Shown: positions 3,301-63,479 of the stretch, in pieces
Layout of the letters: every line of letters starts with the position of its first letter
Position numbering within the stretch: the first letter of the stretch is position 1
NCBI RefSeq assembly: GCF_000003815.2
Contig: NC_049991.1
Coordinates: 1,213,422-1,277,421, forward strand
Reading direction: 5' to 3'
DNA length: 64,000 nt
From: Branchiostoma floridae
Lineage: Eukaryota; Chordata; Leptocardii; Amphioxiformes; Branchiostomatidae
Program-made: the position numbers and the translations under genes
Notes under the pieces: model-generated
Databases searched by the model: none
Told to the model about the DNA's origin: nothing
The model's input: only the letters and a program-made list of their open reading frames with translations

Positions 3301-4830
3301 AAGGAATAGGGACATGCAAAGGATATAGCCACTGGTAGCAGGGCATTGCGTTGGAACAGGCAGTTTCTGATCACAAAAATACGTTTCCATTACTGACTAC
3401 ATGTATATTTACGGATTAAAAGCCTTTTCGAACAGAAACAAACACGCAGCATATGATCCACTTCCGTCACTGGCGACGATTCTTTTTTAGACATGTGAGG
3501 AATAGTCGCGGGCCCCCGCTGAAGGGTCGCGCAACTGGGTCCGAGGTGGACGCACGATGATTCGAGGAAAAACCTTGTACGACTATTTTGATCCTCTTTA
3601 GACAGCCTAAAAATACCGTTGCCGGCGACGTTGTTGACAACAACAGTCGCAGGACTATGAAAGTGTTGTCTGTTTGAAGTGGGCCTTAGTTTGCATCATC
3701 CAGTCATTCACTAACCTGAAACTATTCACAGATACTATCATGTTGTTTTCCTCTGATTGTGTGTCTAATTGCTTTTTTTCTTGTGCCCAGCCTGATAGCC
3801 TGCCACCTCTCCCTCATAAGCATGTCCGAGGGGAGTGTCTGTTGACATACTGGCTTTTCCACAGGGACCACTCACTACAATGGGACAGGTATGTGTCCGG
3901 GCAGTACTAGTTTTACTGTCATTTAAGTCTTTTTTTGTCTAAATATCAAGTACTGTTATCATGGAAGCTCGTCTGTGTTTGAAGTAATCATAGAAGCTTA
4001 ACTTCTTCTAACACAAAAGTACACATGGATCAAATTTTTTATGCCCACTGTCGCCTTTAGAATCAATACTGATGACCAATCACTTCAGAACATAAACTCA
4101 CGAGAGTAACAGACACGTGATCTTCCGATGAACCGTTAGAATAACTTTACTGTGCTAGAAGAACTTCTCAGTCATGGCTTTCCAATAGAAGTAGAATGTT
4201 TTACACTTACAGTCATTTTTTGAACAGAGTTTGAATTATTCTAGATAAGTCGGGTCACATGGGGAGATAAGTCAGGTCACATGGGTCATTTCTGACTGAA
4301 CATGCAGGGGGACACTGACAAACTGACACAGAACATTACATAAATGATTTTGCACAGTTGAGTTTCACTAATATTACCTTTAATCATATTGCATTAATTA
4401 TGTAAAAGAAATTACAATTTTTTGTACAGTCTTGTTTTCAGTTATCAAAATCACTAGATGATAATTCACCCAAGTTTGAAGAGGGAGAGCATATCATTAT
4501 CCAGTTATATTTTACAGCAAGAGCTTGCAGGTTTCTATAGTGGTGTGTGTGCTTTCCAGTGCAGCTCATGGCATGCATTCCATGTAGTGTAAGATGGCAG
4601 CATTGCTACATGGCTAATATCCCTAAAGAGATTCTTGGTGGTTTTTCCTTAACTATGTTGAACAGCAGTGTTTTTTATGTAAATCTGCACCTTTTGCCCC
4701 AATAGATCCTCCATCCCATTGCTGGACAATGAGGAGGCTGTGAAGGGGGCCTTCGCACTGCCTGGTTTTGAGGATAGTCTTCGAGAGATGAAGGAAACAA
4801 TTTCAGCAACAGTTGCCGATGATACCACAG
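388..4830 (+). CDS. ELAC2: tRNase Z long form (ELAC2), exons of the middle region; 5' end outside window
   Basis: Six exons with GT-AG borders and matching phases: 388-500, 873-933, 1418-1516, 2676-2814, 3791-3888 and 4706-4830. They encode the region between the N-terminal (inactive) and C-terminal (catalytic) metallo-beta-lactamase halves of long-form tRNase Z. Recognisable stretches are LKKGNQATLPDGRIINPEDY, GPVFIVVECP, PAIVVHFTPAGVV, FGPDTEHLFLNED and LLDNEEAV. ELAC2 removes 3' trailers from nuclear and mitochondrial pre-tRNAs by endonucleolytic cleavage. Reading starts mid-codon at 388, so roughly the first 300 residues, the start codon and the promoter lie upstream of this window. The exon ending at 4830 joins in phase to the one at 19076, across a 14.2 kb intron that contains a CACTA transposon. 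Identity is from family recognition; expression is not shown here. Confidence 0.9.
1605..1760 (+). mobile_element. tRNA-derived SINE
   Basis: A tRNA-like head has a box A-like TGGCGCAGTGGCAGCG and a box B-like GAGTTCAAATCC about 45 bases apart. It is followed by a conserved-looking body (CTTGGGAAAGGTACTTTACA, CCTCACTTTATTCAGGTGC). This is the architecture of a tRNA-derived SINE. It lies in the ELAC2 intron after the exon at 1418-1516. I cannot name the family with certainty. Confidence 0.6.
2412..2650 (+). repeat. Dispersed SINE-like repeat, copy 1
   Basis: GGGATGTCCCTGTAGCTCAA opens with a tRNA box A-like segment. The downstream body (GGGACGTAAAAATTGGGGTC, GCTAGCAACCCCTCCCTG, ATATACCCTGCTACTG, AAACAGC) recurs at 19640-19775, and the head recurs at 19226-19345. 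The copy stops about 25 bases before the ELAC2 exon at 2676. Confidence 0.55.
2950..3685. mobile_element. 736-bp Harbinger-like MITE, copy A
   Basis: Terminal inverted repeats of about 45-50 bp begin GGCCCACTTCAAACAGA and end with its complement. The element is flanked on both sides by TTA (2947-2949 and 3686-3688), the 3-bp target duplication typical of PIF/Harbinger elements. There is no transposase, so it is non-autonomous. A second copy of nearly equal length in the opposite internal orientation is at 39983-40719. It lies in an ELAC2 intron. Confidence 0.8.
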
Positions 4831-5184
4831 GTAACAAGAGTTCGTAGACCTCAGGCCTGCATGAAATGTATTGGGTGTCTGTAGACTTATTGTGTATTTT
4901 TTTCCCTTTTTGTCCGTGGTTGCGTGGTTGGAAAAGTGAGATTTTTACCGTGTTGGTTGTGCACCATGCAAAAGTCTGAAATTCCATTTTTGGAATGTGT
5001 AAGTTTGGTCATGGATGAACATTACTTATTTTGGATTTCTTAAGCATGTAACCAACCACAGTACCTTGAATTTGTTGAGACGACTTTTCCTACCTTTTTT
5101 TGTCTCAGATGGCCCTTGTAGATATTCTGTCACATATGATAAATTCAGTACTGATATCTTCCTATTTCAATGTACTGACCTAAT

Positions 5185-5580
5185 CACTGCACCAAATCGG
5201 ATATTTAAGCATACTTAATGTGATTCGTAAATGAAGCTTAAACATTTGAATATAATTAAGTTATCTTTAAGCTACATTTACGAAGTCGGAAATGCCACAA
5301 CTAAAAGTCAGTCTTTACGACACATTTAAGAAAATCGTTAAGTTCACTTAAAGATATAAGTAACTTTACTTGTTCCTTAAGGTCACTTAACTATGCATTA
5401 AAGATATAACAGTAATTTGTGCAGTTTTGCCAACACATTATAGATATATACTGACTAAAATAACCATCAATTTACTCTGCATTTTAATTCGTTTATGTAC
5501 GATACCATTAAGCGTCCTTAAATATAGTTTAAAGCTATTTATTTAAGCTTCGTTTAAGCTACTTAAAGTGTGGGGTAGAC
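5185..5580. repeat. CACTA left terminal inverted repeat and subterminal TTAAG-rich array
   Basis: The 38-bp terminal repeat starts at 5185. It is followed by nearly 400 bp dense in short motifs of the type TTTAAGC, GCTTAAAC, CTTAAG and TTTACG in both orientations. In plant CACTA elements, subterminal repeats of this kind are the binding sites for element-encoded proteins. That role is inferred here. Confidence 0.7.
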
Positions 5581-8500
5581 TCTCATTAGTCTTACTGGCA
5601 ATTGTACTCTTCAATCAATGAATTTTGAAAACTACACTCCTTGACTTCTGGTCACATCATAGTTTATTCAAAAGCTTCTGCGGACACGCCTGAGCAGGCA
5701 ATAGGAGGAGCGGACTTTGTGCTCTTACAACGACTTTTAGTTTTAAAAACTACACATAAATAGAGACACCTATTACTAGTATGCATTGTCTGTATGTTCA
5801 AGCAAAAATGTAGTTTGATCTATTGATATATACAAAGCAATTTTGAAACGTAACAGGACATCGATTATATAGCCAATTCAAAGGCGACACGTAGGAGTCC
5901 CGGCCTACCAGTCTAAGCAAAACAAAACAAACCATAATACAACTACTGGTACTTGGTTTAACGATGTGGTAACTAATTCTCTAGAATAGGGCACGTTTTC
6001 AGCCTTGTAAATACCTGCACAATACCAAAAGATCGGCCAATCCAATGCAGATAATAATAGCTCACAAATTGTGATTAGCAGGGTTTAAAGAGAGTAAGCG
6101 TCACTAGTCCATAAAAACAAACAACATGTAGTTCCGAGTGGGCCTTTTCTTTTGTTTATAAGTCCACCGGCTAACCCACGCCATCTTTGTTTGAATTCAT
6201 TCCTAAACTTGAAAACACTATCAAATACCGTAGACGCAACAAAAAACGTTGATACTGGATACCATAAGACGCTGCACAGTGCGTGGATTTGACATTTTCC
6301 AGTTTGACCCTAGCAAGAAGCTCCAAAATGCATACATTTTTGTTTCTTTTTCGTAGTTTGAATGTCGCGGATAATCGCGCTTGGACGCTTGGGGCGCTCC
6401 GCGAATGCAAAATGGCCGCTTCCGCTGAATTTGTAACAAGAAGCTTTTAAAGTTTGTTTGAGCTTTTATCAAAGCACTTGATTTTGGTCAAGCGGTGTGT
6501 TGTTCATTGCCACCTTCACTTAACTCTGAAAAATGTCAACATTACAAGAAAACTGTACATTTCATGTTTCGAGTTATATCTGGAGATAAACAAGGCAGAA
6601 TTTGACCAAGTACCTTGATTTGACAAAACAAACAACCGCCGGGAGGCGGAATATCGCCGCCATTTTGGATCTGGTTTGAGGCGTCTAGACGTTCTAGGGG
6701 AAACGTAACACTCTACGTAATTTGTAAAATAAGTTTAAATTGCCTAGGCATGCGGCCTATATACATTGTGACTGGCGTTCTAGCCGCTGGTGACCGAACT
6801 GAGCGTGTTGAATTTGGAAAAGAGAGCAAGCAAGTTCATAAAAACAAACTAGTTCCGAGCAGGATTTTTCTTTGTTTACAATCTATAATTGGCTCAACGT
6901 TAACCCACGCCGTCTTTGTTTGGATTAATTCTTTAACTTTAAAGGAAGTTAAATGCCAAATTATATGGTAGATACAACAGAAAGTCGTTGGTACAGGATC
7001 CCATAACGTTCATGCTTTCTGCAAACTCTTTATCATTACATTAGATAAAAGCGCTGCAGAGTGCAAGGAGTTGACAATTTCCTGTCGGACGCCAACTTTG
7101 TTTCGATTCATTCCTAAACTTTACAACAATATATAAAATTAGAAACAACAGAAAATTGTTGCTATTGGTTCTTCATAACGCTCATGTCAACAATTTGACA
7201 TTTTCCAGTTTGACCCTAGCAAGAAGGTTCAAAATCCATAAATAGTTTGAATGTCGCGGGAAATCACGCTTGGGGCGCTCCGCGAATGCAAAATGGCCGC
7301 TTCCGCTGAATTTGTAACAAGAACCTTTTAAAGTTTGTTTGCCCTTTTATCAAAGCACTTTGTTTTGGTCAAGCGGTGTGGTGTTCATAGCCACCTTCAC
7401 TTGATTCTGAAAAATTTCAACTGTACGAGGAAACGTTGAATAAACTGTACATTTCGTGTTCCGAGCTATATCTAGAGACAAACAAGGCAGAAATTGACCA
7501 AGTACCTTGATTTGACAAAACAAACAACACCGCAAGGCTCACAAGGTAGCCGCCATTTTGAATCTGGTCCAAACGTTTCAGGAGAAAACATAACACTGTA
7601 CGTACTAGTAAATTGCAAAATACGTTTAAATTGCCTACTAGTAGACATATACACATTGAGACTGACGTTCTAGCAATTGGCGACCGAACTACTGCGCATG
7701 TTGAAAGAATAAAATGTAAGCTTTTCGGAAACATTTTTTGTTTGAGAAAAAAAATGTGTATTCGTGGCATTGAAAGGTATTAGTATGATCGGTCACGAAA
7801 TTTGGAAGAACAAGTGTGATGCAACTTATGTAAGACGTCTAGAATAGAAAGTTTTCAAAAACAGCAGTTTAATTATCCAATGAATTTGCAGGCGTAGTCA
7901 TTAGAAAAACCAAGGTGGCGCAGGGCAAGCGCTTAAATTTTGTTCTGATCATAAAGGTCGCCGTTCTTGTGGAATGGCCCCGGGGTGTTAGATATGGTAC
8001 CAGTGGGGTTTCAAGTTCTACCATGAAATAATCTGCACTTTCTTAACGCACGAATATCAGACAGGACGATGTCACAGTTGATTTGCTTTTGATTTTATTA
8101 AAATTGCAACAACACAAAATATATGTCAGACCCAACCATGTTGACAGCTTTATAGTGTCGTTCAATAGTACAAATTCAAACAGTCAAAAGGTACATTCAC
8201 AATAATTACAATGCGTTGCTTTCTTTCCGTGTTGGATCAGGTAATAAACACGTTCAGTAAATACCAATATGGCGATTCGTATATTACAAAGCCTCGATCG
8301 GCCTCACTTGTATGTTTGTATGACCCAAGTATCTATACATAGAAGAAGAACATGTGCGTATCAGTAAAATACAGTATGTACAATAGTTTATACATCCCTA
8401 TATACTAGTATCGTCAATAACCCAGCAGTGTGTATTTTCTAATGCTTATCAAGGAATGTGCTCATGTCCTTACTGCCTAACAAGTCAACTTCTAATGTTG

Positions 8501-8581
8501 GCAATTCTAGATACATCATATTCACAAGTTTAAGATCTATATACACAATCTATATACAACAGTAGATGTCATTCACCCATT
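5581..8581. repeat. CACTA left non-coding region with internally repeated blocks
   Basis: No gene is seen. A block with GACCCTAGCAAGAAG, GCGCTCCGCGAATGCAAAAT, CAAAGCACTTG and GACCAAGTACCTTGATTTG occurs at about 6180-6790 and again, diverged, at about 7085-7690. A third partial copy of the start (GCCGTCTTTGTTTGGATTAA) is at about 6840-7080. A TTTATT at 8094-8099 is a candidate poly(A) signal for the minus-strand transposase. Confidence 0.6.
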
Positions 8582-11500
8582 CTATAGCAAAGTTTTTCTA
8601 GCAATTGGGCAGACAACGACAACTTTTTTCCCGTCCATTACAGTCTCTGCCCATGCAGATTTTCGATACAGTCTCTGCACGGGTATGAACGAAGCCGGGC
8701 CGCCAACTTCGGTTGACTTCTCCCATACAGTAAACGGCTTCCCGTTTCCAATGTCAGACTTACAGGGAGATGTCCTATACCAGCGAACTACTGCAAACAC
8801 ATGACATTTCACCTCCCCACCGATTTCCACAGAGTGTGCATAAAAGTTCTGAATTACACCAGGCCTGTGTTCAGAGCTTGAATCAATGTTTCCGTTTTCA
8901 CCCAACCACGCAGCCATGACATACGCTGCTCTACTTGACCTAGCTGCTATCCTAGAGCCAAACAGTTCCTGCCCAACTTGACAAGTTCCGTACTTTCTAA
9001 CAACTGTTGCCAGGTTTGAAGCATTTATTTCCTTGTTAGGGTACATCTCATTATACGTATTATGCAGGAACTCTTTGTCATCTGGCGACAGTGCATTTCT
9101 AGTAAACACGGGCGGGAGTTTGATTGTCTGTTCGTCAGCTGACCAATCAAAGTTTGAGATATAGCGGGAGGCACACATTTTCAACAACATTCTTTCTTTT
9201 TCACTTGGCACATCAGCTACTTTGTCTTTTGGACTAAATCTTTCAAATATTGGACCAAAGACGTCACTTAGGTAGCTAGGTAAAGGGAGATTATGTGCAA
9301 AATCACTAATGAGGAATTTCCTCATTATTTGGAGTTCAACTTCCCTGTTGTTTGTGGTCTCTGAACCCAACAGGCCATTGTACCTCTCAAAGCTGAACAG
9401 CCAAAAACCATGCATAGGGCCATAATCAAGAATACAGTCTTTCAAATGGCAATGTAGATGCATATTGGGTGTGATGGACAGTTCGCCAAACAGCCTTTCC
9501 ACCTTTTTCCCAAACATTACAAAAGCCGAATCTGCCCAGTCTATGTCGGCGCGACTAACCGCGGGTTTGCACAGACGCTGACAAGTCAAGACAAACATTT
9601 GCCAACATTGGTAATGTTCTTGTGGCAACAAGTCGTGCAAACAATACATACTATAATACAGTGTCCAATTCTTCCACTCGTCAGCAGTGAAAGACCCATA
9701 ATTTGAGGTAATTCTGGTTGGAAGACGCCCAATTCCGCTTGGAAGATTTATTGTTCCTATGCGTTTCTCTAATTTGTTGAGCTTAGTTTTAGTCAGAATT
9801 TCACGGTCTATCCAAAGCTTGAACATTCTCTTAGCCGTTCCAAGAAAAAGGTTGTGCATAGGATCCAAGAAACAGAATCGAACACTTTGGTAGTACTCAA
9901 GATCCATTAATGGTGTGTAGCGTGTACCGAAAGACTTTTCAAGCTCTTTCCTCCTAGTCACATTACAGCAGCTCTGTACTTGTAATCCTTCTCTCCTGTG
10001 CTGCGCGTCGCTTCGCAAATGCCAACTGGCTTTGTCGAATCCAGAATAGTTTGTTTTCTTACCAACCTTCTCAAATTTCTTCTTACATTTAGAACAACCA
10101 ATTTTTGCTGCGTGCCCTAGAAAACCGCACAGTTTTCTAGCAGCCGGAATATCAGCAGCGCAGCAAAGGAGAGCAGCTCGAAACTTCAGAGGAAACTTGG
10201 GGGACATATACGACGTGAAATGAACTCCCTGCCACAGAAACTGTAGTTCTGTTACAATAGGTTGAAGGAAATGTGTCAGACATTTTGGTTCGCTTTTTAG
10301 CGCTGGCATTATCCCAACCAATATGACGTTTTCAACTTTAAACCTTTCTTTCCGTGGCAGATTCATAACCGTCATATATATCGCCCCAACAGAATAGTCG
10401 TTCCTGCGCTTGAATGGTTGGAACCAGTCTAGATTTAGCATCAAGCCGTAATTCCTCGGCGCTGACAGAAAGTCTTTCCCATTCCATTCTTGGAAATCAC
10501 GCCAAACCTGTCCATCAAACACATCTCCTAGTAATTCCTGATCTGACATGTCTCTATCCCTCCATAGCTCACATTTCTCCTCAAATCCTTTCCTTTTTAC
10601 AAATGACTCAAGTGTTTCTATCACACTCTTCATACAGTATACCTTGAAAGGATAGTACTTCCTTACACCAGAAACAGAAGTTATGACTTGCCTAGATAAC
10701 AATGTATTGCATCTAACACTTCGGTTTCGTACCATTCTTACATTATCACACCGTCTTGGTTTCTCTGTCCCATTGACGGTTTCACTTAACTTGTCGATAT
10801 CAAACAGTTTGCAACATTTCGGGTCAGGACACACACAGTACTTTGTAAAGTTATCCCTGTTCAGTCCCAAGACTTTCCATGTCATGTAGAGGGAGGACAG
10901 CCCGCCTAGATAGTTAGGATTTATTCCTAGCTTGTCAAGCCAGGGGCACAGAAAAGTGATAAGATGCTGTAAACCATTATCACTGACATGGTTGTGAGCT
11001 TGCCATAACAACAGAAAAGTAAGCAGCCATGTTACCAAGGTAACGATAGGATCATCCCTGGAGGTCTTTGTCGGGCGTTCACAGCTGTCAGCAAGGGCGG
11101 ATGCGTGGAGGTTCTTCAGAAGCTGGTCTTCCAACTCCTGACCCTCCCAAATCTCCTCCCCGTGCTTATCACCGCTGTCCAAGCTTTCTTCCCACGAGCT
11201 CTCATCGGTTGAGTTGTCTTCAGATGAGCTAGCTTCCTAAAAGGCGACATCGCAAATGTTTAAGAACACTTTTCTAACTTTTCTTTCTACGGAAAGCGCT
11301 ATGTACTTTTTACTCATAAATACTAAATCTGCTTTAATATAATAGAACATGATTCTGTTATACCGTCTGTATCTATATAGCCCGTCTAACCGCCCGTGGC
11401 GTACACGCCCGTTGGCGTAAAACAGCATCTTTTACCGGTACAAGTACTGTCGCAAAAATCATAATCATCATTGATTTCAAAGGTACGATATAGTTGATAT

Positions 11501-12215
11501 TAGTTCGTGGTATTTATAAGGCTGTATAGTCAAAAACATTCTATGGGTTGTGGTCAATATAGGTCATTTTGATAAATCTCAGATAAACAAGAAACAAATG
11601 TTTTCAACGCATACATACGAAATACTACAAACTTGTAGCAAATCCACAGCATGAATATAATACTTACGGACTCATCGCTGGACGACACCGACTGTTGCGA
11701 ACTGTTGCAAGGGCTCGCACCGACGACAGAACTTGACTGGTCACCTGGTAAAAGAGTGTTACGGCATGTATTAAATTTGCCAATCATCATAAATTGACTG
11801 AATGTTTACAGCCTTTAACAAAGTGAAAAGTACGATTGTTCAGATATTCGGTAACGTTCGACTATATTCAGTCACCGACTAATGTATATATCATTACTGG
11901 GACCTGAAAAAATAGATTTTGACTTTGTAAACTTAATATTAAATTCCCCTTACCATTTGCGGTCGTTTCTGCGTCTGAATCACTCTCAGCGCTACTACTG
12001 CTCGAGTTCAGCAGCGGATCAGGCACGTTTACAGGGCTCCGGAACAGGGGCCGCGCGGGCCGTGTTTCGTCAGCCTTGGCCTGCTTCCACTGCCCCGTAG
12101 CCGCGTTGAAGTAGTCGTTCTTGTGTCGGAAATAGGTACGTGCAGGCTTATAAGCTTTGCAGTGGCCACAATACCTATTCCGCTTGGAGCTAACCGGTGT
12201 AGCAGTGCCGTCCAT
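8582..12215 (-). CDS. CACTA/EnSpm transposase (Transposase_21, tnp2-like), three exons
   Basis: Predicted exons on the minus strand are 12215-11954, 11744-11668 and 11236-8582, joined in phase by GT-AG introns, for 997 residues. The first exon encodes CGHCKAYKPARTYFRHK, a probable zinc-binding motif, then a Ser/Asp/Glu-rich linker. The long third exon contains CPDPKCCKLFD and then the RNase H-like transposase core of the plant tnp2 family. LNLDWFQPF carries the first candidate catalytic Asp (residue about 383) and ADIPAARKLCGF the second (about 475). A CSKCKKKF cysteine motif follows, then DPMHNLFLGT. The reading frame is uninterrupted, so the protein may be functional. A splice acceptor (TTTACAG) lies 5 bases before the ATG, implying a further 5' UTR exon. 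It should cut and join the CACTGCA ends. The third acidic residue of the triad was not assigned. Confidence 0.85.
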
Positions 12216-13095
12216 ATTACCTGTAAAAGTGAAATAGGGACAGGTGTATAAGTTTTATGTATCAGTCACACAGTAGGAAAAAATGAAGCAAGTGGCGTCA
12301 TTCAAAAGCCTTGGTTTACTAAAAGTAACAGGGCAAGGCATTCTAGGCAAAATCGATATATTTCTTGATATTCGCCCATCCTACTAATATAAAGATTCTC
12401 GTTTCAGTATTTTATACAGTGATGCCTATATGTTAAAGGCATATACGCGTACGGGCGCCGCGGATAATGTACCTTGTTAAAATCTGACAATGTAACTAAG
12501 ATATACAATTTGGAAATGTCTTACCTGGAGTACATGTCCAGCCCGTGCAACTTCTGTGGAAAACTTCTACCGAATGCCACCAAAATGTTCACTGGCTGTG
12601 TGACTCGTTTTCGTACAATAGGAAACTGTTTAAAGACAACATTTCAAGTCTTTCTAAAAGAAGCAGGTGATGACTGCTGCGGGGCAATTTTGATGGAAAT
12701 CGGTGCATTATATTTCAACGAAATGTCCGCCAGGCAATCAGTATGTCTATACTTTGCAAAAAAACGTCTGACATTTCATGAATATCTTGAGTGAACTGTT
12801 GTGTTTGTTATTGTTTTGTGGTGGCATGGCAGGACGATCCCACGCCAGGTAACAATGACTGGTCTTGGCACCCACGCCGATTTACAAAAGGTGTGCCCGA
12901 CAATTCACATATCATTGTGTCTATCGGACATGTAAATTTTGATAAGAAATAAGCCAATCACATGCAGTTTCCTTATGACGATGGCCAATCATCGTTGATG
13001 ATGCAAGTTTTGAATTTTTGAACTGAACACCTAGCGTCATTCTAAGTCTGACGATTCTAGAGTGTGCAACGTTAACATTTTCACCGTTTTACAAA
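12216..13095. promoter_or_regulatory. Divergent intergenic region between the two CACTA genes
   Basis: This 880-bp stretch separates the start codons of the minus-strand transposase and the plus-strand accessory gene, so promoters for both probably lie here. No TATA box stands out. An open frame at 12474-12794 (106 codons, with PCNFCGKLL) is not recognised and has no other support. Confidence 0.4.
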
Positions 13096-15807
13096 ATGTC
13101 CGCGATTTCTCGTACTGACAACCCCATGGAACGAGGAGACAGCGAGAACCTTGCCATCATCCTTCAGGATATGGTTAGGAAGTTTGAGTCTCAAACCACA
13201 GAACTGCAGGCACTGAAGGCACAGCTCCAGGAGCAGGAACGCCGGCAGGCTAATCAAGAACCGCCGCGGGACATCCGAGAGGACAGCCCGTCGCCAGGGC
13301 ACGCTCGCCAACGCCGCAGGGTTCGGAGGAATCCTCTATTCCATCCACTTGCAGGGTAGGTGATTTATTTTGAGTTTTGTCATTTTGGTCATATTTGCAT
13401 CATTGCCCGTACCNNNNNNNNNNNNNNNNNNNNNNNNNNNNNNNNNNNNNNNNNNNNNNNNNNNNNNNNNNNNNNNNNNNNNNNNNNNNNNNNNNNNNNN
13501 NNNNNNNNNNNNNGATACCGGGGTCGTTTCCCGTATGGGGTGTAACCCCACCCCCAAATGCCCGTTAGCCACGGGGCGTCACACGGGGCCATGTATGGCT
13601 CACACCCGAACGACTGAAAAAAGGGGTTCCCCAAAAGTGCCCGTAAAGTGCCGTTGAGTCTTTTTTTTTCAATAATGTGACCGTAGCATTATTCAGGTAG
13701 TTGGTCAAACACATTTTAGCGCTTGTATCTGTATAATGCTGGCCACTTATGTAGATACCTAGCACGCATACTAGCAGGTTTTTAACAAGAAACGGACCGA
13801 TGAACACAGCTCCCCAGGCTAGCGTGCGAGCTTATTAGACCGCCATCCATACACTTGTAGTAATTGACATATCAATGTCCCTTCTATCTTTCTAACTCAA
13901 TTTCTCGATCACTAAAACAAAAGCAACAGCCAAATTAGACGTATTCCCCAATGACTGTTTGAAGGAATTTTCCCATGCGAGTGTTACAAACTTGCGCGCA
14001 AAGACAGCTAGTACATTTGTTTAAAATGTTTTGCAGGATGCCGTGCGCAAGGTGTACCGGGCGATGGAAGAAGGCGAAGGAGACTTTCAGGGCTTTCGGC
14101 TTACTGAACGGTATAGCAACTCCTATTTAATAAGACGTTTCTCTTGCCATGGCATTGTCAAGACATAATAATAGTACCAGATGTACCGTTTAACATGTTC
14201 ACTATGTTTATATGACTCCCTTCCGTCAGTAATGACCATGAAAGAAACCCTATGATAACATCCTGTTTGATAATTTGATAATCCTGAAACGAATGCCTCT
14301 AGTACTTGTAGATTGATAACATAATTTATTCATTTTTTGGCATAGTATGGACTCAGCAGCCAACCAGCACATTGTGAAGATCTTGAGAGACGAGGTGATG
14401 AAAGAGCATGGAGGGCCTGAGAAGTGTCCTTTTTCATCAGCCGAACTGAAGGGTAAGTAAATTACACACCAAGTATGTAAGATTAATCGTTTGAAGAAGC
14501 AAGCTCTGATTTCTCCCTAAATATCTTTTTTTCAAACTGTAAATTCAGTGCAAGATGCAACTACGGTTATACTGCAGCAGGGTTGGAGCACTAAATCGCA
14601 TGTATTGTGCAAATAGCACTGACTTTTAAATCTCTACGGCCAGTGAGCAGAAACTTCACGGTGTCAACGATACTTTTACAAATCTTAGTTTCTATGGCGT
14701 TACCTTAGAACCTATATTAACTATTCAAACACATTTGCATATGTGACGACTAAGTCTTGTTGACTCAGGTAAAACCGGTTTTCCCAGTGACATCTCATGT
14801 ATAGCAGTATTAGCCCTCAATGTAAATTCATGTCCGGAATTAATCTCCATATCTTATCCAGTTGTAGAAACCGATTTGCCTGCAAGTTTTAAGTTCATTT
14901 TCCTTCATTCTAGATGCTGCCAAGAGGTACTATAGATCCAAGAGGGATGACCAGGTGCGGGCCCAGAAGGGGACGTATGCGGAGCACCGACACTCGGTCA
15001 AAAGAAACGGGAGGCAGCAACAGGTTAGTCTTATACACATGTAATGTCAAAGCGCAATACCTGTAGGATTAAAAGTTAACATATGAAGTCGTGATTCTGA
15101 AGTTTTGTGACTCGTTCTCCTCAACTTTTCAATCCAGGAAAATAACGCCACAATGTTACTGAGAGCCGGTATTTCTTTATATCAAGGAAAAAAATACTTA
15201 TAATATATGGGAGATTGTCTCTTGAAGCACGGCTCTTATCTATTGCATTGTTTAATAGTATTTCACTCCATACCACAGGAATATATACCAATTTGTATGC
15301 ATAACATTTTTATCATTCTTACACCAAAAAGCACATTTTAGCCATCGTATTGCAACCAAGTGACAATTGATAGTTAGCTGTATAGTATATACTTCACCAT
15401 GGAGAAATGTTTGACATCAGGCTCATATCTCATTTCAGAAACTGGCGAGACGACGAAAGGCGTACAACCTGGCACGGGACAGCTGGTCAGAGAAGTCTAG
15501 GAGACGGGCGGAGGAGACTCTCCACAAAGACTTCATGTCATCGGAGTCTTCCGACAGTGAAGTGGAGGGGCCGAAAACCTTCAAGGTCAGAAAGCTGGCC
15601 TGGGAGTCAGGAAAGATGACCAAAATCAAGGAGTCGCTGGACGCTGTCGTGCCACTTCGGGGCTCTCCTCGAATCCCTTCTCGTGAGCTTTCGGACAGAA
15701 AAGTACCAGAGGGGACCCCGGAGTGGGCGATCAGCAAAAGGTATCAGAACGGCAGAGCACCAGCAACTGACGTCAGCGAGCTGAGACTGGAGTTGGATAG
15801 CGAGTAG
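13096..15807 (+). CDS. CACTA-encoded accessory protein, basic with coiled coil, function unknown
   Basis: Exons seen: 13096-13355, 14037-14110, 14346-14452, 14914-15023 and 15439-15807 (stop TAG). The last four join in phase. The first ends in phase 2 while the next reads from phase 0, so a further exon is probably hidden in or near the 100-N gap at 13414-13513. The N-terminus has a heptad-like stretch (MVRKFESQTTELQALKAQL, then QLQEQERRQ) predicting a coiled coil, followed by an Arg-rich segment (RQRRRVRRN). The middle holds VRKVYRAMEEGEGDF and a Lys/Arg-rich helix (KRYYRSKRDDQVRAQKG). The C-terminal exon starts KLARRRKAYNLARDSW and continues through an acidic Ser-rich patch (SSESSDSEVEG). 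I do not recognise the family. Being basic and inside a CACTA element, it may be a DNA-binding partner of the transposase, like the second protein of plant En/Spm. That is inference. Confidence 0.65.
13414..13513. other. Assembly gap (100 N)
   Basis: A run of 100 N lies in the CACTA accessory gene, probably hiding a small exon. Confidence 1.
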
Positions 15808-16234
15808 GACGACAGACAATTAGGAGCAGATTTTGTTTGATTAGTTTAGTGTAGCTGTTTTTTTCTCAAAGAGTTTTCAAAGTCAAGTTTGTAGCCACAG
15901 AATAGTCGTTTGCAACAACCAATTTGAGTAATTAATGTCAACATTTGTTTGTCCTTTATACTATGTAAACACAATTTACTACTAGTAATTACAGCCCCTG
16001 TGAGTTAGTGTTTTTTACATGTTTACTTGTTTATTCTACCAGTTAATCAACCCTTGTAAAACTGAAGAAGAGTGATTAATGTCACCCGAACCGCCTGTAA
16101 GTCGGAAATATCTCATTGTTATCGAATTCAATATCGTTTTTTTGACATTCATAAATGAGCTATGTTTTTAATCGGTTTAAGATAATCTGATACAACAACA
16201 TGCTGGTTTTCAATGTGATTGCCTGTGTATATGG
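15808..16234. other. 3' flank of the CACTA accessory gene
   Basis: AT-rich sequence follows the stop codon. No gene or clear structured repeat is seen. It runs into an N gap. Confidence 0.5.
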
Positions 16235-16393
16235 NNNNNNNNNNNNNNNNNNNNNNNNNNNNNNNNNNNNNNNNNNNNNNNNNNNNNNNNNNNNNNNNNN
16301 NNNNNNNNNNNNNNNNNNNNNNNNNNNNNNNNNNNNNNNNNNNNNNNNNNNNNNNNNNNNNNNNNNNNNNNNNNNNNNNNNNNNNNNNNNNNN
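16235..16393. other. Assembly gap (159 N)
   Basis: A run of 159 N lies just inside the right subterminal region of the CACTA element. Confidence 1.
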
Positions 16394-16865
16394 CATTACG
16401 ATTCTTAAAAGCAGCTTAAATAAAATATTTAAGACTATATTAAAATACTTAAAACCTACTTAAACCAGACGTAAGGCAAAAAATTATACGATTTAAGATA
16501 CATTTACGGTGCTTAAACAATGTTTAAACATTTGGATTTAAGCTTAGTTTAAAGCACTTAAAAGTTGCTTAAATGTGTGCCACTACGTGCTCTTTACGGA
16601 CTATTTAAGTCGACGTATGACACTCAATTTAAGCAGCATTTACGGTGCTTAAACGCTGTGTAAACGTACGAATTTAACCATAGTTTACGATACTTAAAAG
16701 TTGCTTAAATGTGTGCCACAACGTGTCCTTTACGGACGCACGTAATCATAGCTTAAATATAATCTTTCCGAATGCGTAAACATGACGTAATGTAACTTAA
16801 AGAATGCCAATACGGTACCCTTAAGCACACTTTAAGAGTGCTTAAAGAGCAGTTTTCATGCAGTG
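16394..16865. repeat. CACTA right subterminal array and terminal inverted repeat
   Basis: The stretch is dense in GCTTAAA, TTTAAG and TTTACG motifs. It contains a larger tandem duplication of about 130 bp: TTACGGTGCTTAAAC at about 16504 and 16630, and ACTTAAAAGTTGCTTAAATG at about 16557 and 16691. The terminal 38 bp mirror the left end at 5185. Confidence 0.7.
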
Positions 16866-16868
16866 AAT

Positions 16869-17640
16869 GCAGCTGCTAAATCTCCTTAGTGTGGCAATGA
16901 TATTCATTAAAGATTTATTTCTGGAGTGCTATAACACTTGACACTGGAAGGTTATTTGCATAATTTGACCAATTAAGTTTTTACAGTAGTTCCATAGACA
17001 ACATGAATAGTGGTAGCCCCCATCCAGCAGCAACAGTTAGTCCCCAGGGTGGTATGATATTTTTATTCAATCCATCCAACTAAAACCTAAACCTAAGTGA
17101 CAAAATGCAACAAACAATACCAGATTTAAAATAGAACAAAGCTTCTACCACTTAACCCTGTATGTACTATAGATTAAGCAGACCCAAAAATCAAGCGACC
17201 ATGACTAGCCCCAAACTACAAAATACCTGCATACAATACGGAAATGGCATCCCCAAAGAAACAACAAGAAACACAGGAAGATAATATACATACCTTTCTC
17301 TTACACTCAAGCTCTATACATTTCTCCTCCATTTTAGAAAGTTGTATCTTCTTCTGATTGCCAAACAGGGTACAGGAACTTGTACCAGAACTTTAAACTC
17401 AGTACTACACAGCTCTCAAAAGTCGCCACAAAGACTAAGAAGCAAACTCAAATTGTACCTAACAGCAACAGATACTAGTACAAACTGAACTGAACTAGTA
17501 CATCATCTGGCTGGAAATGCTGTTGATACAAAGTAACCTGGTACATTGAAGGTGGCAGAAGCCAGTGCAAAAACAGATGACGATTCTACACATAAGCTTA
17601 AAGACCTATCAATCAACCCAAACCTGTTTTCACAACCAAG
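16869..17640. other. ELAC2 intron 6 sequence downstream of the CACTA element
   Basis: AT-rich intronic sequence. I see no gene, and no repeat other than the start of the degenerate array that follows. Confidence 0.4.
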
Positions 17641-17679
17641 CAGATATTGGGGGGATGCCCCAACCACACAAAAACTGGG

Positions 17680-18260
17680 TCAACCTACAGTATCAAGTTC
17701 AAGCACTAGGAGGCCCAAAATCAAACCTGACCACCAGGACACAAGCAACAATCCACGTACCAAATAGCAACACGATGGCACCTTGCGTTTCGGAGATAAA
17801 GCGCAGGCGCCGTTCCCGCACTAAAGGTAATCTGGAATGTCAAGTTCAAGCACCAAGGGCGCCAAAATCAAAACTGAGAATTATTCAGCCACCGCCAACA
17901 CATGTGCCAAATATCATCGCACCCGCACCATCCGTTCAGAAGATATAACTCCGGAAATACCCCTCCCGGACACAAAATTCGACCTACCGCGTCAAGTTCA
18001 AACGCGACAAGGCCCAAAGTCAATCCTAGGCAACAGGCAACAACTTCCCACCCATGCACCAAAAATCGTCGCAATGGCGCGTATCGTTCCGGACACACAA
18101 AAGCACCAAAAATGCCACCTTCAATGTCAAGTTCAAGCGCCAGGAGGCCCAAAATCAAACCCGAGTGTCAAGCCACCACCCCCAACCCGCGTACCAAAAA
18201 TCGTCGTGCTTGCACCATCCGTTCTCGAGATACAGCGCCCTAAATCCCCAGCTTCCAAAT
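17680..18260. repeat. Degenerate tandem repeat, about 145-bp period
   Basis: The block TCAAGTTCAAGCAC followed by an AGGCCCAAAATCAAA-like stretch and a CCACGTACCAAAT-like stretch recurs at about 17693, 17840, 17990 and 18126, diverging between copies. Open frames across it are a by-product of the repeat and show no family resemblance. Confidence 0.6.
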
Positions 18261-18547
18261 TTTCCCACGCCCGTGAAAACCATACCTGCATATACATGCA
18301 GGCAATAATGTCCTGAAATCACTAGTAAGTTTTGAGGATGAATTAATCCCAGTGTACTGATTAACGATGATAATGGTACTGGTGAGTCTGTTAGTCCTTC
18401 CCGCATAGGCCCATAATTTCAATAGCCTTTAAGCCATACAACTTAATGCAATCAATACAGCAGGGGGCTAGTCCATTGGTTGTGGTGTGTATTCAACAAA
18501 TACTGAGTGCTAAGCAGAGAAAGCAGCATGTACCATTTTAAAAGTCT

Positions 18548-19075: not shown

Positions 19076-22000
19076 TCTCCCAGTCATACCCAGAAGTGGT
19101 GTTCTTTGGTACAGGGTCGTCCATCCCCAGTAAGAGGAGGAACGTCACGGGAATCCTGGTCCATCTCAGGTCAGTACTCATGTTTTTGCATCAGTATGAT
19201 GTTTGAATATGATGCTACGATGTTTGCATATGACACTAGGGATGTCCCTGGTAGTAGCCTCACAGTTGAACCCTTGATTCTAATGAGTTGGTTACTGGGA
19301 AACCCCTGTTCAATCCTGGGTCAGGACATCTAGACTGAGACTGTCTTTAAGACAATGACAATGAAGTTTATTGCATATTCATGTCCCCTTGGCTAAATGC
19401 AGTAAGTCACATACAAAGAGATTGATTGGTAAGCTGTTCTATGTTCTACTTATGCCTATATTTCTCTATATGCGTCTTCCCTCTTCTTAAAACATGTGAA
19501 GACAAACTTACAGAGTTCTTCTATTAAATCGTAGTTAGCTGATGACATTAGTGATTTGAAAAGTCTTCCTTTGTTAGTTGTGCATATTTCTGTTTTGCAA
19601 GTGTAGTATTACATATATCTTTGTACAGAGTGAACATGTAAGAAGGGACGTAAATTGGGGGTCCCGTTTTTCGGCGCTCAAAAGGGAAGGGGCTAGCAAC
19701 CCCTTCCTGTAAATATATTATATACCCTACTGTTAGGCTACAGTTGAAACAGCAAGGCAACCTGCTGACCTATGGGATTAGGTACTACAAAGGACCAAAA
19801 AGAGTTAAAAATCATCTTTATTCCAAACAAGATGAATACATACATAGTACACATTAAAACATAGGACAGCCCTTTGTTTACCAGGAGGGCGCAAGGTATC
19901 AAAAAGAAATACAATGTGTTTGGACAGATTAAAAGCACTTAAAACATTAACGTTTTTCATAAAATGTAGACCCTGATAATCACAACTAGTTTCTGTAGAT
20001 GAACAGTCCTGAAGTACAGTCCCATGTACATTGTAGGTGTGTTTTAGGCACAGTAGATAGCATAAGATGCACAAAGTGCGCACTTTCCCAGTCTACTTTT
20101 AAAATGTCTCACTTAATGGTCTTTGTAGCTGACCGGACAGAGTGACTTCAGTTTTGCAGTGTTCTCGCCATTAATCCAACCTCTGCTCCCTACTTCAACT
20201 GTAACAAGGCTAGCCCTGTAACTTAACTGTGCAAGTTTATGTCATTAATCAGACATTCGTACAATCAGACATTAGTTCTCCTATTGTTTTGTACAGTGAG
20301 ACTGAGTCCCTGTTGTTGGATGGTGGGGAAGGCACATTCGGACAGATGTACCGTCACTATGGTGACAAGGTGGACAGAGTGTTGGCTAACATCAAGTGTG
20401 TGTTCATATCACACATCCATGCTGACCATCACTTGGTAAGTCATATACAAAATGTGTTTCAAATTTATTATTTTTTAGTGACTCCTGCTTAAGTAACATC
20501 TTTTTTATTTATGTTCCACTGCTAAGTCGTATGTAGAAGTTGCAGAAAGGCTGAAAGATACATGTTTACAAATGTTCACAGAGCTTTAGAAAGTCTGGCA
20601 GAAAATTGAATTATTGAGAGAGGGCAGAACAATAATTTACCACTGGGGGAAAGAATTTGTTACTACATTATGTCCAAAACCATGGAAGACGGAATATGTG
20701 ACTGTACATTNNNNNNNNNNNNNNNNNNNNNNNNNNNNNNNNNNNNNNNNNNNNNNNNNNNNNNNNNNNNNNNNNNNNNNNNNNNNNNNNNNNNNNNNNN
20801 NNNNNNNNNNGGGACAAGTTGGGATGAAGTTTGTTCCTGTCATGTTGTGTATACATGATACATGTACATAAAGAAAATATTAAGGATAAACATGTTATGT
20901 CAGCTATCAGATTTTGTAGTCCAGTGAAAATCATTGGAGTGCTCAGTTGAAAGTAATGTTATAATGATATGAAAGATTATAATATTGTTTATCTTGAATA
21001 TGATTTTTGCAGGGACTGATGAGAATATTCCAGGAGAGAAGAAGAGCACTGGTAAGGGGTTATCATGTCAACATCATGTACAATTACCAAGAAGTGAGAG
21101 GAAGTCAAAAATACTCTAAAGAGCAGAGTATCTAGTATATGATTGTTAATATGTGACCTGTGCTTATCTTGTTGGCATCCATTGGTAAAATAAAGGTCTT
21201 AATTCATTCCTTAATACCCCCTTTATTATATTTCCAGACTGACTATATTGAGTATTTAGCATGATATGCCAATATTACCAGTAATATTTTTTTGCCACTT
21301 GAACACACAGATAGAATTAATGTCCTAATGTTAGAGAAAATACATTCTTCCTTTGGTTAACAATTTGCAATGTCATTATATTAGACACTAGACACAATGT
21401 ACTGTACAGCTTAAGTTGAGATTGGGCGCTTACTTCAGACATTTTCTGAGGTTTTACTAATCTTTTTGCATCATTTTAAAGTTCAGGGTTACCAACCTGA
21501 GATGTGTAAACGGTTTGGATGTTGTGTATCCTAGCAAACCCTTGGAGAGCCCCAGCAACCTGTGTTCCTGATAGCCCCCCTGCCATTTATGTCATGGATC
21601 AACCACTACAGACTCAACTGTGAGAACATTGGTATAGACAACAAGGACTTCATGTAAGTGCAGTACCTACTTAAACAGACAGGTGGTACTATATAATACT
21701 AGTTTACGTTAAACAGAAAGGACCAGAGCAAGCTGCTAGCTAAGGGGGCCCCAACTTCCATTACTTCTTCCTACATGTCACACATGTCTACATGTAGGAC
21801 AAAGTACTAAAGATAGTTTGCTGCAGTATCTAGGTCGTCTACCAGGAGGCCCAAAGTTGTACAGGACTGTCAGGAGCTTAACACACCTACATGCAGTTCC
21901 TACATGTATGCACTTAGCACATATCATTGCAATCCATCCTGCATGTTTGTCAAATAATCCACCGGACCTGCACAATCCATGCAAGCTATAAAGTATACTT

Positions 22001-36069: not shown

Positions 36070-37179
36070 CTGGAACCAGAGGTGCCAGACTCAGGCATTT
36101 ATATAACTCACAACAAAGAGTTTGGATACCTAGATTTCAATACTCTTTCAGCTGTATGGAATTATGTATGACTGGAAAGCATGCTTATTACTCTACACAA
36201 TGATATCAAAGTTTACTCTCCAAGCAGAGTTTAGGCTCTGGCTGTTTTTTTTTTTGTCCTTTTTATTGGGCTTTCTGTTTTGTATTGTATCTTGTATTGT
36301 CAAAACCAAACCTAACTGCAACCTTCAAAAAACAATACAAAATAAAGCCAGATAAAAACGACTAAAAAAACGTAAAAAAACATAACCAGGGCCTAACCTC
36401 TACTTGGAGAGTAACCAAAGTTGACTACACAAATGAGACACAAGACAAGCCAGCCCAAATCCCCCTGAAGTGTAAGAACTTTTGAGACTTGTTGGGGCGA
36501 TCCACCTAAAAACTCAGTTATGATGCTCGATGCATTAAAGCATGCCAGTGGTCATAACAAATAAGGCATCAATTTTTAAAAGGAAAACGAACTTTTCAAT
36601 GAAATAACACATTGTGCTAACCATTAAAAACAATGGACACTTTTTTTCGTGATCTGTCCTAGTGTTCCACCCATGATCATAACAAATAGGACATCATTGT
36701 AAAGGGCAATAAACAAGCTTTCTAATGATACATAATGGAATGTACAGTAAACTCAAAGGGACTTGATTGAACAACATTAAGTTTCCAAATTTCTCTTCCA
36801 AGTTTATTGATAAGACAATAAAATAAGAGGAATAGCCAAGACTGAGGTAGCCATGGAGTTTGTGCCCAGAATTTCTGCTCTCCCTTGAATGTTGTTAAGC
36901 CAAACATCTTATTCTTGTAGTACTACATTTTACATGTGTATTCTAGCCCAAGGAAAATACCAAAACAATTGTACTTTTGAAGCTAAATCTATACAGACAT
37001 GTGCAATGTCTTTTTTTCTAAGGTTAAACATTTCTTAAACAAACTACTAGGAACAGATCTGCCAAAACAATTCTGATAACTGAATACTATGTACAAGGAC
37101 TGTACCAAAAGGAACAAAATTCTAGCAAATAAAAAAAAAATCTGGAGGTTACATGTACTCCAGTCAACAGTAAGAACTT
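36070..37179. other. PIDD1-like intron sequence
   Basis: AT-rich intron. A loose duplication (CATAACAAATAAGGCATCA at about 36553 and CATAACAAATAGGACATCA at about 36677) is the only structure seen. Confidence 0.35.
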
Positions 37180-37181
37180 AC

Positions 37182-39252
37182 CTAGTTTCAGGAGGCGGGG
37201 TTTGATGCTGCCCCCTACCCTGTGTTGGTAGTTGCCGATCTCAGGTAAGGGCTTCCCACTCCTATAACAGATGACCTCTAACCCAAAGGTGTGTGTCTGA
37301 AACTCTTGCATCAGTGCCTGACACATCATACTAAACTGTGTATAGGGATAGAAGTATGTCACTCCCATCTTTGCCGCATGCATCTTCGTCGCAAGTACAT
37401 CCCACAGCACACGATACCACGAGAAGTGAGTCACAGGGAAACAGATCACATGGTTTTCACCTTCCTCTTCGATACGGTGGTCAACCTCTAACTTCTCCCA
37501 AGCGAGGGGTTCCTCTTCATTGGTGGGACTGTGCCAGACAGTAAGCGTTGTGTCCTGACCAAACCTGTCCAAAATCTGCAGGTAATCTGGGATGGGGAGT
37601 TTTACTACTACGGGGTCTGTTACTGTAGAAAACTTGTAGCCATGAGGTCCCAGTGTTACCACAGGGGTAGCGATGGCATAGGGGGGACTGTTTACTTCAT
37701 CTAGTCCATAGGGGGGGTCAGCATACAGGACCTTCATACTGGCTTCCATGGAAGTATGAACAGAACCTTCGGGAAAATGGATCTCCACTCCAGGTAACTC
37801 CTTCAGATTCAAGGTACCCCCTCCTGTGGATATGACCATTTTAGTCTCTGGATACACCCTCCGTAGGACGACTGTGAATAAACTGAAGTGTGAGGTTTTT
37901 ATGATGACTTTTCCATCGCTGAATTGCCACTGAGATTCTGGAATCCTCTCCCATGCTGGTGTCTGTCCCTCTGATGTCTGGCTGCACAGGCACACAACCT
38001 TGTCACACTGGCTGGGTTCTGCATGTAGCGGTATGGTGATCACTGCTGGTTCGTCTGGGTAGAACTCTGCGCCATGTGGCTCCATACAAACAACACTGCT
38101 GGCATGGACAGACACACGGCTCCAGTCTCTCACCTCAGCTGGGAGGTACCTGCCATCTTCCAGGATGTCGAGGGAGAATTCCGCCAGTATGTGTCCACTT
38201 CTGTTGTGCTCAGGGACCACAACAGAGACTTGCTTGTACGTCAGAAGAAGGGTTCTGTCAGGAAGTCGCTTTCTCCTAGCCAGAAACGACTCATCCTCAG
38301 GGTCAGACTCCATTTCATCTCCATGGTAACAACTGCACTTTTCATCAGTTTCGTCAAAGTTACTGTCTCTGTCGGTTTCACCCTCGCTGTCGTAGTCACC
38401 ATGGCAACTAAGCTGGTCTCCATTGGTCAGATCGATGGCGCCAAAGTCATAGGAGAGAGAGTTGATGTCAAAATTCGATGAAGAGTAGTAGCCTCGATCA
38501 CTTGATGACCAGCATCTGTCCCGACCATTTCTACCACAGATCCATCCTACGGAGCTACACTTGCAGTGTGTTGACAGTGTTTCGCTGGCATGATCTTTTT
38601 CTGACACTTCTACTATACTGGATGTTTCTAGCTCATTCTCCCTGATGTAACATGATCTTAGAGTTACAGAATTTAGCTGTTCCACAAGTGAGAGTCTCCT
38701 AGGCTCTGACTTCTGTTGGTTGCAATTCTTTGGTACATCTACATCGAAAAACTTTTGCATTGCGTCCAAGCCAGCTCGGATAATGTCCTTCGGAACATTC
38801 TGGATGGGATTCCTGATCAAGTGAAGCTGCAACAATGTTGGAATGTACAGAAGTTTTGGAATGAGCAAGGTGATGAGATTTCCTGACAAGTTCACCACTT
38901 CCAGACTCTTGGCCTGAGCTAGGGCAGTTGGAGTCTCAACAATACAATTTCTCGAGAAGTCCACCACCCTGAGGTGCGACAAACTGGCAATTTCCACGGG
39001 GAAAGAGTGAAGCACATTGTCATGCGCATACAAATACTGGAGGTTGTGTAAATCTCCAACTTTTGATGGCAAAGTGGACAGCTGGTTATAGCTGACATCT
39101 AGGTAAGTGATGGCGGTGCACAGCGGCGGCTGAAAGACCTTCCAAGGGAGAGATGTGAGTCCGAGGCCACGGAGTTCCACGTGAGACTGATCGCCCAGAC
39201 AGGCCCGCCACAGGATCTTGTCTGCTGGGGGGAATGCTTGTGCTGCTTGCAT
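37182..39252 (-). CDS. PIDD1: PIDD1-like gene, first coding exon: LRRs and two self-cleaving ZU5 domains
   Basis: A single 2071-bp exon encodes 690 residues; with the downstream exons the protein is 915 aa (human PIDD1 is 910). The start is fixed by an in-frame TAA directly before the ATG. Leucine-rich repeats run from about residue 20 to 170 (ITYLDVSYNQLSTLP, LQYLYAHDNVLHSFP, LEVVNLSGNLI). An acidic Ser/Asp/Glu linker follows (about 190-330). Two ZU5 domains come next, each ending in an HFS motif (SHFSLF with Ser457, THFSWY with Ser611), the sites where PIDD proteins cut themselves between Phe and Ser. A UPA-like region starts at about 620. A splice acceptor sits 9 bases before the ATG, so the 5' UTR is spliced. 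The donor at 37181-37180 is GTAAGT. PIDD1 senses DNA damage or extra centrosomes and activates caspase-2 or NF-kappaB signalling. Confidence 0.9.
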
Positions 39253-53655: not shown

Positions 53656-55663
53656 TTGATCAGTGACATTTTTGTTTGTTTGTTTGTTTTATTTGGATCA
53701 CCATTAGTGATACTAAATGAAGCATCACTATACATTGCAAACCTTCCATGGGATCTTGTTGAACTGTTTGATGATGTGGACGACGCTTTAGATGTATCCA
53801 TGCTTCTCTTCAACACAGTGGCTGACTTCCATNNNNNNNNNNNNNNNNNNNNNNNNNNNNNNNNNNNNNNNNNNNNNNNNNNNNNNNNNNNNNNNNNNNN
53901 NNNNNNNNNNNNNNNNNNNNNNNNNNNNNNNNNNNNNNNNNNNNNNNNNNNNNNNNNNNNNNNNNNNNNNNNNNNNNNNNNNNNNNNNNNNNNNNNNNNN
54001 AGAAAAGGACACTACTTCAAATCTAAGATGTCTGAGAACTCAAATGATCCAAAACATGTATGGAAGTTAACTAATTCGTTATTAGGTAGATCCAAGTGTC
54101 CATATCCATCATGTGTGGAAGTAAACGGTCAGAACATAGTTAAACCATGTCAATTTCACGACTAAAACCAAGACTCACAGGAAAAACCTGGAGTCTCAAA
54201 ACGGACCTGTCACTGTCCCCATTGATCAACAAATTATGTCGGATAAGTCATGTTGTTTTCAGTTCCACCCAGTCAGGATTCAGTCAGTGATGATGAGATA
54301 CTCAGGTTACTGTTAGACATACGATGTCATCTACATGTGGTATTGATCAACTCGAAAACAAATTAGTTTGATTACAAATATGCCTTACAGGCGATGCAAT
54401 ACTAGTATACACAGTTTATAATCTGTCACTTATGAGCTGCCCTGTTTGGCTAGCCAATGGAAGAGAGCTAAGGTGTGCCCCTTACCTAAGAACACCAGAA
54501 AACCACTGACCGGTAACAACACCAGGCCTATCAGCCTACTGCCTACTTTGAGTAAGGTATTGGGAAAAGTTGTACACAATCAAATCTGGCAGTATGTAGC
54601 ACTGAATGATATTGTGACACCCTTCCAACATGCCTACCGACCAAATCACTCCACGACTACTGCTTTATTACGAATGACGGACGATTGGCTCTCCGCTATG
54701 GTTAAAGGGGAAATGGTAGGGGTTGTTTATATCGACTTCAGTGCCGCATTCAATGTAGTCGACCATGAGCTTTTGTTGGCAAAATTAAAATCCTATGGTT
54801 TCAGCTCAGGCCCTTTAGCTTGGATGAGAACTTATCTTCACGCTAGAACGCAGGTAGTGTATATTAACGGGGACTTTTCGGAACCATCTGTACTTGAATG
54901 TGGCGTTCCCCAAGGAAGTTGTTTAGGCCCTCTTAACGTTACACTATTCACTAATGATTTACTTTTGTCAAATAGCATAACTTTTCAAATAGCATAACTG
55001 AAGTGTATGCAGATGATACAAGTATGTACAAAGCCGCTAAGTCCATAGCTGAGATTGCTGCTGTCTTGCAGCCTGACCTCAGTAAGATTTTAGAATGGGT
55101 AAAAAACAACAAACTTGTGATGAACGTCCTTAAGACTAAGTGCATGCTTTTTGGATCTCCTAGAAAACTGGCTTTTCTACCTTCCACCTCACTGAATTTG
55201 GTTATTGGAACTAGAAGTATTTAACAGATGAAAGAAACAGTTTTGTTGGGGCTGCAAATGGATCAGTCACTTACATGGGATTTGCATATCAATCATGTTG
55301 TTGCCAAAGAATCAAGGAATATCGCCCTTGTGAGAAGGCACGCATGTGCCATGTCTTATGAAGTCTGTAATTACGGTTGTTTTATGCGCACTTGTATTAT
55401 CAGTAGCACAGTACTGTCTACCAGTTCTAGCAAACATGTCCGAGTCAAATACTCGAAAGTTCCAGGTAGTACGTATACAGAACAGAGCCTGTAGATTGTT
55501 ACTTAAATGCCAACTAGAAACACCAACTTTTCTCTACCGTACCATCAGTCTATGGAATGACCTACCACCACACATCAAATCCCTGCCCAACATCTCACGC
55601 TTTAAAAAGCTATATCATATCCACGCACTGCACAGTCAGCGTTTTTCCTTAGCTACCTCGTAG
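53656..55663 (+). pseudogene. Broken L2/CR1-like LINE (reverse transcriptase)
   Basis: After an N gap (53833-54000) comes RKGHYFKSKMSENSNDPKHV, typical of the linker before RT. RT motifs follow in order: KVCPLPKN, RPISLLPTLSKVL, FQHAYRPNHSTTTALL, VVYIDFSAAFNVVDHELLL (palm motif with the first catalytic Asp), and ECGVPQGSCLGPL. A stop interrupts at 54997, and the YADD motif resumes in another frame at about 55008. LLGLQMDQSLTWDLHINHV and later frames complete the C-terminal region, ending near 55663. Several frameshifts make it inactive. Confidence 0.8.
53833..54000. other. Assembly gap (168 N)
   Basis: A run of 168 N lies within the LINE relic. Confidence 1.

Positions 55664-62950: not shown

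Positions 62951-62994
<44 letters not shown>

Positions 62995-63433: not shown

Positions 63434-63479
<46 letters not shown>

Follow-up and report, generated by a model that had tools for sequence, protein, structure and literature searches.

We identified a CACTA (EnSpm) DNA transposon in an intron of the ELAC2 gene of the lancelet Branchiostoma floridae, within a stretch of 64,000 nucleotides that we call the window (NCBI RefSeq assembly GCF_000003815.2, contig NC_049991.1, positions 1,213,422 to 1,277,421). The whole element spans window positions 5185-16865; its length of 11,681 bp takes in two N runs. The best explanation, to which we assign a probability of about 0.88, is that a cut-and-paste transposon of the CACTA/EnSpm type inserted into a dispersed repeat within this intron, and that its family would encode a DDE transposase of 997 amino acids and a second protein, a putative accessory factor. 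Members of this family have inserted with precise CACTG/CAGTG ends at 3-bp targets, at many sites and fairly recently. On the joint evidence of its CACT ends, 3-bp duplications and Transposase_21 domain, the element is to be classed as a CACTA (EnSpm) transposon, an identity that an earlier sequence-only reading of the window had proposed.

The left end of the element lies exactly at 5185 (CACTGCACC...) and the right end exactly at 16865 (...CATGCAGTG), with CACTGCA at the left terminus and TGCAGTG at the right. The imperfect 38-bp terminal inverted repeats (left, 5185-5222, plus strand; right, 16828-16865, minus strand) are identical at 29 of 38 positions, against a mean of 12 and a maximum of 21 in 2000 dinucleotide-shuffled pairs. 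The flanks carry AAT on both sides as the target duplication, at 5182-5184 and 16866-16868. The sequence-only reading had recognized the inverted CACTGCA ends, a repeat of about 38 bp and the flanking AAT, and all three stand at these positions. Seven further close copies in the genome share identical boundaries, and CACTGCA is present at both ends in all eight. The motif TTTAAGC/GCTTAAA occurs 5 times in the left subterminal region (5185-5580; 0.22 expected from shuffles), 9 times in the right one (16394-16865; 0.38 expected) and once in the interior, so that the element has the short subterminal repeats in both orientations that mark CACTA/EnSpm transposons. Neither the element as a whole nor its target duplications and subterminal regions are assigned a strand. 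When set against the close copy on C19 (copies are named by handles, the one in the window being C13), the run of 100 N has no sequence missing, and the run of 159 N corresponds to about 160 bp. Sequence comparison also revealed tandem units of about 890 bp at 6178-7690 (no strand), an array that is about 890 bp longer in the C5a copy than in C13 and C19; Tandem Repeats Finder, run on 4500-17500 at score 40, reported no repeats.

The transposase gene is predicted on the minus strand. Its third exon (8582-11236), an uninterrupted frame of 884 codons followed by the stop, matches the Pfam family Transposase_21 (PF02992) with an E-value of 8.6e-19 and 68 bits over a cut-off of 28.6, and two additional 5' exons joined by GT/AG splice sites bring the protein to 997 amino acids: exon 1 at 11954-12215, with the start codon at 12215 and open in the three full-length copies, and exon 2 at 11668-11744, taken from the gene model. 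The open frame noted in the sequence-only reading also carries the residues expected of such a transposase. In an alignment of seven pieces, all from this genome, D270, D362, C381xxC384, H593xxxH597 and E617 (numbered by the exon) are kept in the window protein and in the four relatives that likewise span the whole core; of the remaining two pieces, one is without the first two positions and the other ends before the CxxC. Passages of PMC12730594 describe this DDE/CxxC/HxxxH pattern for EnSpm, Mirage, Chapaev, Transib and RAG1. Each of the three full-length copies has an uninterrupted transposase frame, and no more than three of the 884 residues differ. The protein gave no match at an E-value of 1 among solved structures, and no relatives of it were found in viral contigs and phages. 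Its copy number in the genome is based on a PF02992 search, which returned 28 matches. One relative, on C17, has an 884-amino-acid frame; its 20 kb contain no DNA match to the element and no second-gene match, and the five end pairs listed for it were judged to be due to chance.

Searches of the genome with each end, in which the best 40 of 486 and the best 40 of 488 candidates were scored, make all copy counts lower bounds. Eight close copies pair both ends, namely C13, C19, C5a, C1, C14, C13b, C12 and C5b, with identities of 99-100% at the left end and 96-100% at the right; the remaining matches have identities of 75-85% at the left end and of 76-92% at the right, where one further piece of 34 bases reaches 97%. 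Each of the eight is bounded by a perfect 3-bp duplication, and all of these are distinct (AAT, TAT, AAG, ATT, GAA, CTA, TTG and TTC). The sequence-only reading, which a lack of further copies with these ends would have refuted, passes on this point. A diverged short subfamily, with ends 2.5-2.9 kb apart, has a perfect duplication in 10 of 11 paired copies, bringing the overall count to 18 of 19; in the other, two of the three bases agree. This count left out six fetched loci without a clean end pair (L026-L028 and L037-L039). Ten pairs with both ends reached were chosen by hand from the matches to the two ends; where several candidate end motifs lay close together, the combination with the best-matching duplication was used, and all ten start with CACTGCA and finish with TGCAGTG.

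Unoccupied sites were sought by joining the flanks with one copy of the duplication and matching them to the genome, the best 40 of 1647 candidates being scored; the counts that follow apply to these. The joined flanks of the window insertion, with a single AAT, run unbroken over 200 bp in at least 21 places at 98-99% identity, which fixes the junction at 5182-5184. These are related places elsewhere in the genome and not the other allele of the window locus; in this form, the junction anticipated by the sequence-only reading is upheld. Unbroken related sites were likewise found at 98-99% for C5a (at least 3) and C1 (at least 14), and for C12 a tandem array adjoining the insertion has 3 units that match unbroken at 100%, so that four of the eight insertions have such sites.

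Transcribed divergently from the transposase, on the opposite strand, is a second predicted gene of five exons and 306 amino acids, with the two start codons 0.9 kb apart. Its exons lie on the plus strand at 13096-13355, 14037-14110, 14346-14452, 14914-15023 and 15439-15807 (the last with the stop), exons 2 to 5 being drawn from the gene model and from comparison with other copies and with a diverged family on C6. Six of the eight close copies have an intact gene whose splice sites are conserved. In the other two the frame is broken in exon 1, which, compared with the intact copies, has one base fewer in the window copy and one base more in C14. Hence, the description of the window element as apparently complete holds for its ends and transposase and fails for its second gene. 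Two other ideas were rejected: an exon missing in the 100-N gap, which is empty against the C19 copy, and an origin of the plus-strand open reading frames (ORFs) in a nested retroelement, as these frames form one five-exon gene shared with the C6 family.

Among the six intact copies (the frame-broken C13 and C14 being excluded from the codon counts), we counted 5 nonsynonymous versus 11 synonymous differences (p = 1.6e-4). Variable sites number 14 of 911 in coding sequence and 94 of 2247 in non-coding sequence (p = 1.3e-4). The C6 family has both genes in the same divergent layout and the second-gene exons in the same order; its transposase exon protein is 62% identical to that of the window and its second-gene homologue 50% identical overall. 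Between the two families synonymous sites are saturated, and nonsynonymous divergence (dN) reaches 0.31 in transposase exon 3 and 0.56 in the second gene. Judging from such substitution patterns, the second gene is under purifying selection both within and between families. No end pair with a matching duplication was found for the C6 element. Additional second-gene relatives, some with stops, occur on C19 (12.37 and 12.46 Mb), C9, C11, C16, C140 and C158. The two on C19 (G000 C19:12367671-12375082 and C19:12460457-12464949) are separated by about 93 kb. Both have an open frame of 336 codons where exon 1 matches, and no PF02992 match is listed near either of them.

Of the eight close copies, five (C12, C13b, C5b, C1 and C14) are devoid of the transposase: nothing in them matches the transposase region of the C19 copy, and PF02992 has no match at their places. 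C14 holds 3.3 kb of N, left of its deletion junction. There are three such junctions, one shared by C1, C13b and C14, and one each peculiar to C5b and C12. In coordinates of the C19 copy, the deletions end at 7464, 7517 and 7558, in each case between the starts of the transposase (6979) and of the second gene (7860), and their left breakpoints fall in the approximately 890-bp tandem array (6178-7690). As the shared-junction variant sits at three sites (G000 C1:30390748, C13:7679172 and C14:19751960) with different target duplications, this transposase-less variant has itself moved. The second gene is kept in all five of these copies and is intact in four, among which 12 of 911 coding versus 77 of 2340 non-coding sites vary (p = 0.002); some of this constraint may be older than the deletions.

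The three full-length copies (C13, C5a and C19) diverge by 0.82-1.06% in non-coding sequence, by 0.27-0.37% in transposase exons and by 0.11-0.22% in second-gene exons, figures that leave out 6000-7800, 13380-13540 and columns near gaps. Unfiltered, the same comparison has 141 of 7337 non-coding columns varying, versus 15 of 2996 and 2 of 920 in the exon classes. Since a divergence of about 1% is well under the single-nucleotide polymorphism (SNP) rate of 4.39% that part of PMC4284660 gives for the Chinese lancelet, another species and hence a rough guide, the copies seem young when judged against allelic variation. Recent mobility of the family is well supported by these comparisons, in keeping with the sequence-only reading, which had called the element a candidate for recent activity; the family may still be moving at present.

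As for the mechanism, the 997-residue DDE transposase would, as expected from its family, cut at the element ends and join them to a 3-bp staggered target. For the second protein, maize TNPA suggests a parallel: as stated in sections of PMC2613891 and PMC1636069, TNPA binds subterminal repeats and is needed with TNPD for transposition. By analogy, the lancelet protein might be an accessory factor that contributes to the assembly or derepression of the ends by binding to the TTTAAGC repeats of the subterminal regions. We infer this accessory role from the conservation of the second gene and its linkage to the transposase. The window copy would supply the transposase and not the second protein; among its close sisters, two would supply both proteins and four the second protein only.

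Several points weigh against this interpretation. The second gene is frame-broken in two of the eight close assembled copies, including that of the window. Its protein has nothing above cut-off in Pfam (best E-value 1.9) and, used singly, no match at an E-value of 1 among solved structures, and a two-row profile of it yielded best E-values of 0.18 and then 0.51 against the same structures, so that its role is proposed by analogy. The end spacing of the diverged short subfamily is too small for both genes, which counts against a need for the second gene in cis. The other four of the eight insertions had no unbroken related site among the best 40 of 1647 candidates. Furthermore, the evidence covers past insertion only, and not transcript, excision or new insertion.

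Among the alternatives, membership in another CMC lineage (Chapaev, Mirage or Transib) is very improbable: although the C2C...H3H pattern is, according to passages of PMC12730594, common to these lineages, CACT ends, 3-bp duplications and Transposase_21 jointly fit EnSpm. It is also conceivable, if quite unlikely, that the element merely carries the second gene along as a passenger, captured from the host whole or as a fragment, with no part in transposition. In line with this, its protein is without a Pfam family or known transposition domain, the short derivatives with ends 2.5-2.9 kb apart have moved without room for it, and host-sequence capture is reported as frequent in CACTA elements in portions of PMC8195511. 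Nevertheless, the same five-exon gene recurs in this divergent position in the diverged C6 family and is under purifying selection within and between families; moreover, the relatives found are element-like copies only, with no single-copy host gene recognized among them, although they were not inspected individually.

A more serious contender, though still an unlikely one, is that the family is a dead relic whose intact frames reflect youth only, with nothing moving now. The frame-broken second genes of the window copy and C14 and the presence of the transposase in only three of the eight close copies would both agree with this; conversely, both genes are intact in two copies, and the divergence of about 1% among the full-length copies is well below the 4.39% SNP rate reported for another lancelet in part of PMC4284660. 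Regarding the transposase-less copies, we consider it rather probable that they retain the second gene by chance or recency and not by selection, given just three deletion events, a constraint that may partly predate them and a diverged short subfamily that manages without room for both genes. Against this, all three deletions stop between the two start codons (C19-copy positions 7464, 7517 and 7558), and the four intact transposase-less copies have 12 of 911 variable coding sites versus 77 of 2340 non-coding ones (p = 0.002). With some hesitation, we also put forward the doubtful idea that the family is split into two tiers, a few full-length transposase carriers and mobile transposase-less variants selected to keep the accessory gene, whose product would belong to a class of accessory factor unrelated to plant TNPA and would favour its own copy. 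Such a protein might bind the subterminal repeats of the copy encoding it or keep that copy open in chromatin; if it prefers that copy, accessory-only copies would be favoured over empty ones.

The surrounding gene, on the plus strand, is ELAC2 (long RNase Z), as ORFs at 2608-2859 and 20214-20489 match residues 357-403 and 498-553 of the human protein, respectively. The sequence-only reading had placed the element in the sense intron of a tRNA-processing gene; the location stands, whereas the orientation does not for the transposase, which is antisense to ELAC2, the second gene being sense. The insertion target is a dispersed repeat of about 1.8 kb (4833-5184 and 16869-18308), which aligns over about 352 bp to the left of the element and 1440 bp to the right, the right part being internally repetitive. 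Elsewhere in the window, we noted a full-length match to eukaryotic 18S rRNA (model 1-1831 of 1831; 61809-63583, plus strand) about 45 kb from the element, a reverse transcriptase fragment (PF00078, E-value 3.8e-19; 54422-54997, plus strand), and a long open frame (37087-39252, minus strand) that we take to resemble PIDD1, as it contains a ZU5 domain and leucine-rich repeats as well as a sub-threshold match to Peptidase_S68.

CACTA elements have been studied mostly in plants. They are called exclusive to plants in a portion of PMC8195511, and passages of PMC1636069 already record them in animals. The family presented here offers an animal CACTA system whose full copies are nearly identical and whose ends are exactly defined; with unoccupied sites known and short derivatives sharing these ends, excision could be tested in cells. 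In parts of PMC1636069, an accessory factor was proposed for animal elements and none shared between animals was found; the conserved second gene of the lancelet family is a candidate for such a factor. With transposase-less copies that retain this gene, one can test whether a factor of this kind favours its own encoding copy. In the literature searched, with Repbase and most subscription journals outside its scope, we recognized no description of such a divergent second gene, and the family may already be catalogued.

With maize En/Spm, the lancelet element shares CACT ends, a 3-bp duplication, Transposase_21, subterminal repeats, a predicted second element-encoded protein and internally deleted derivatives. 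It differs in that TNPA and TNPD arise, according to PMC1636069 in part, from one alternatively spliced unit, whereas in the lancelet the second gene forms a unit of its own on the opposite strand; its protein is likened to TNPA by description and not by sequence. Plant CACTA elements with a transposase and an ORF2, as presented in part of PMC4158355, also have two genes, one without recognized function, and the likeness is again one of description. Soybean Tgmt*, as described in passages of PMC2613891, is likewise a large intronic CACTA element with a three-base duplication and subterminal repeats more numerous on the right than on the left; unlike the lancelet element, it is a 20.5-kb plant element with an imperfect 13-bp terminal inverted repeat. 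SmTRC1 of Schistosoma mansoni and the animal TRC elements, following portions of PMC1636069, share a Transposase_21 protein and additional proteins; however, they have CCC core ends and 2-bp duplications, in contrast to the CACTG ends and 3-bp duplications seen here. Their extra proteins are, in the same portions, products of alternative splicing with no relatives in other animals or fungi, whereas the lancelet second gene is common to diverged families of one genome. A separate, divergent and conserved second gene, along with derivatives that keep only this gene, differs from what those portions describe.

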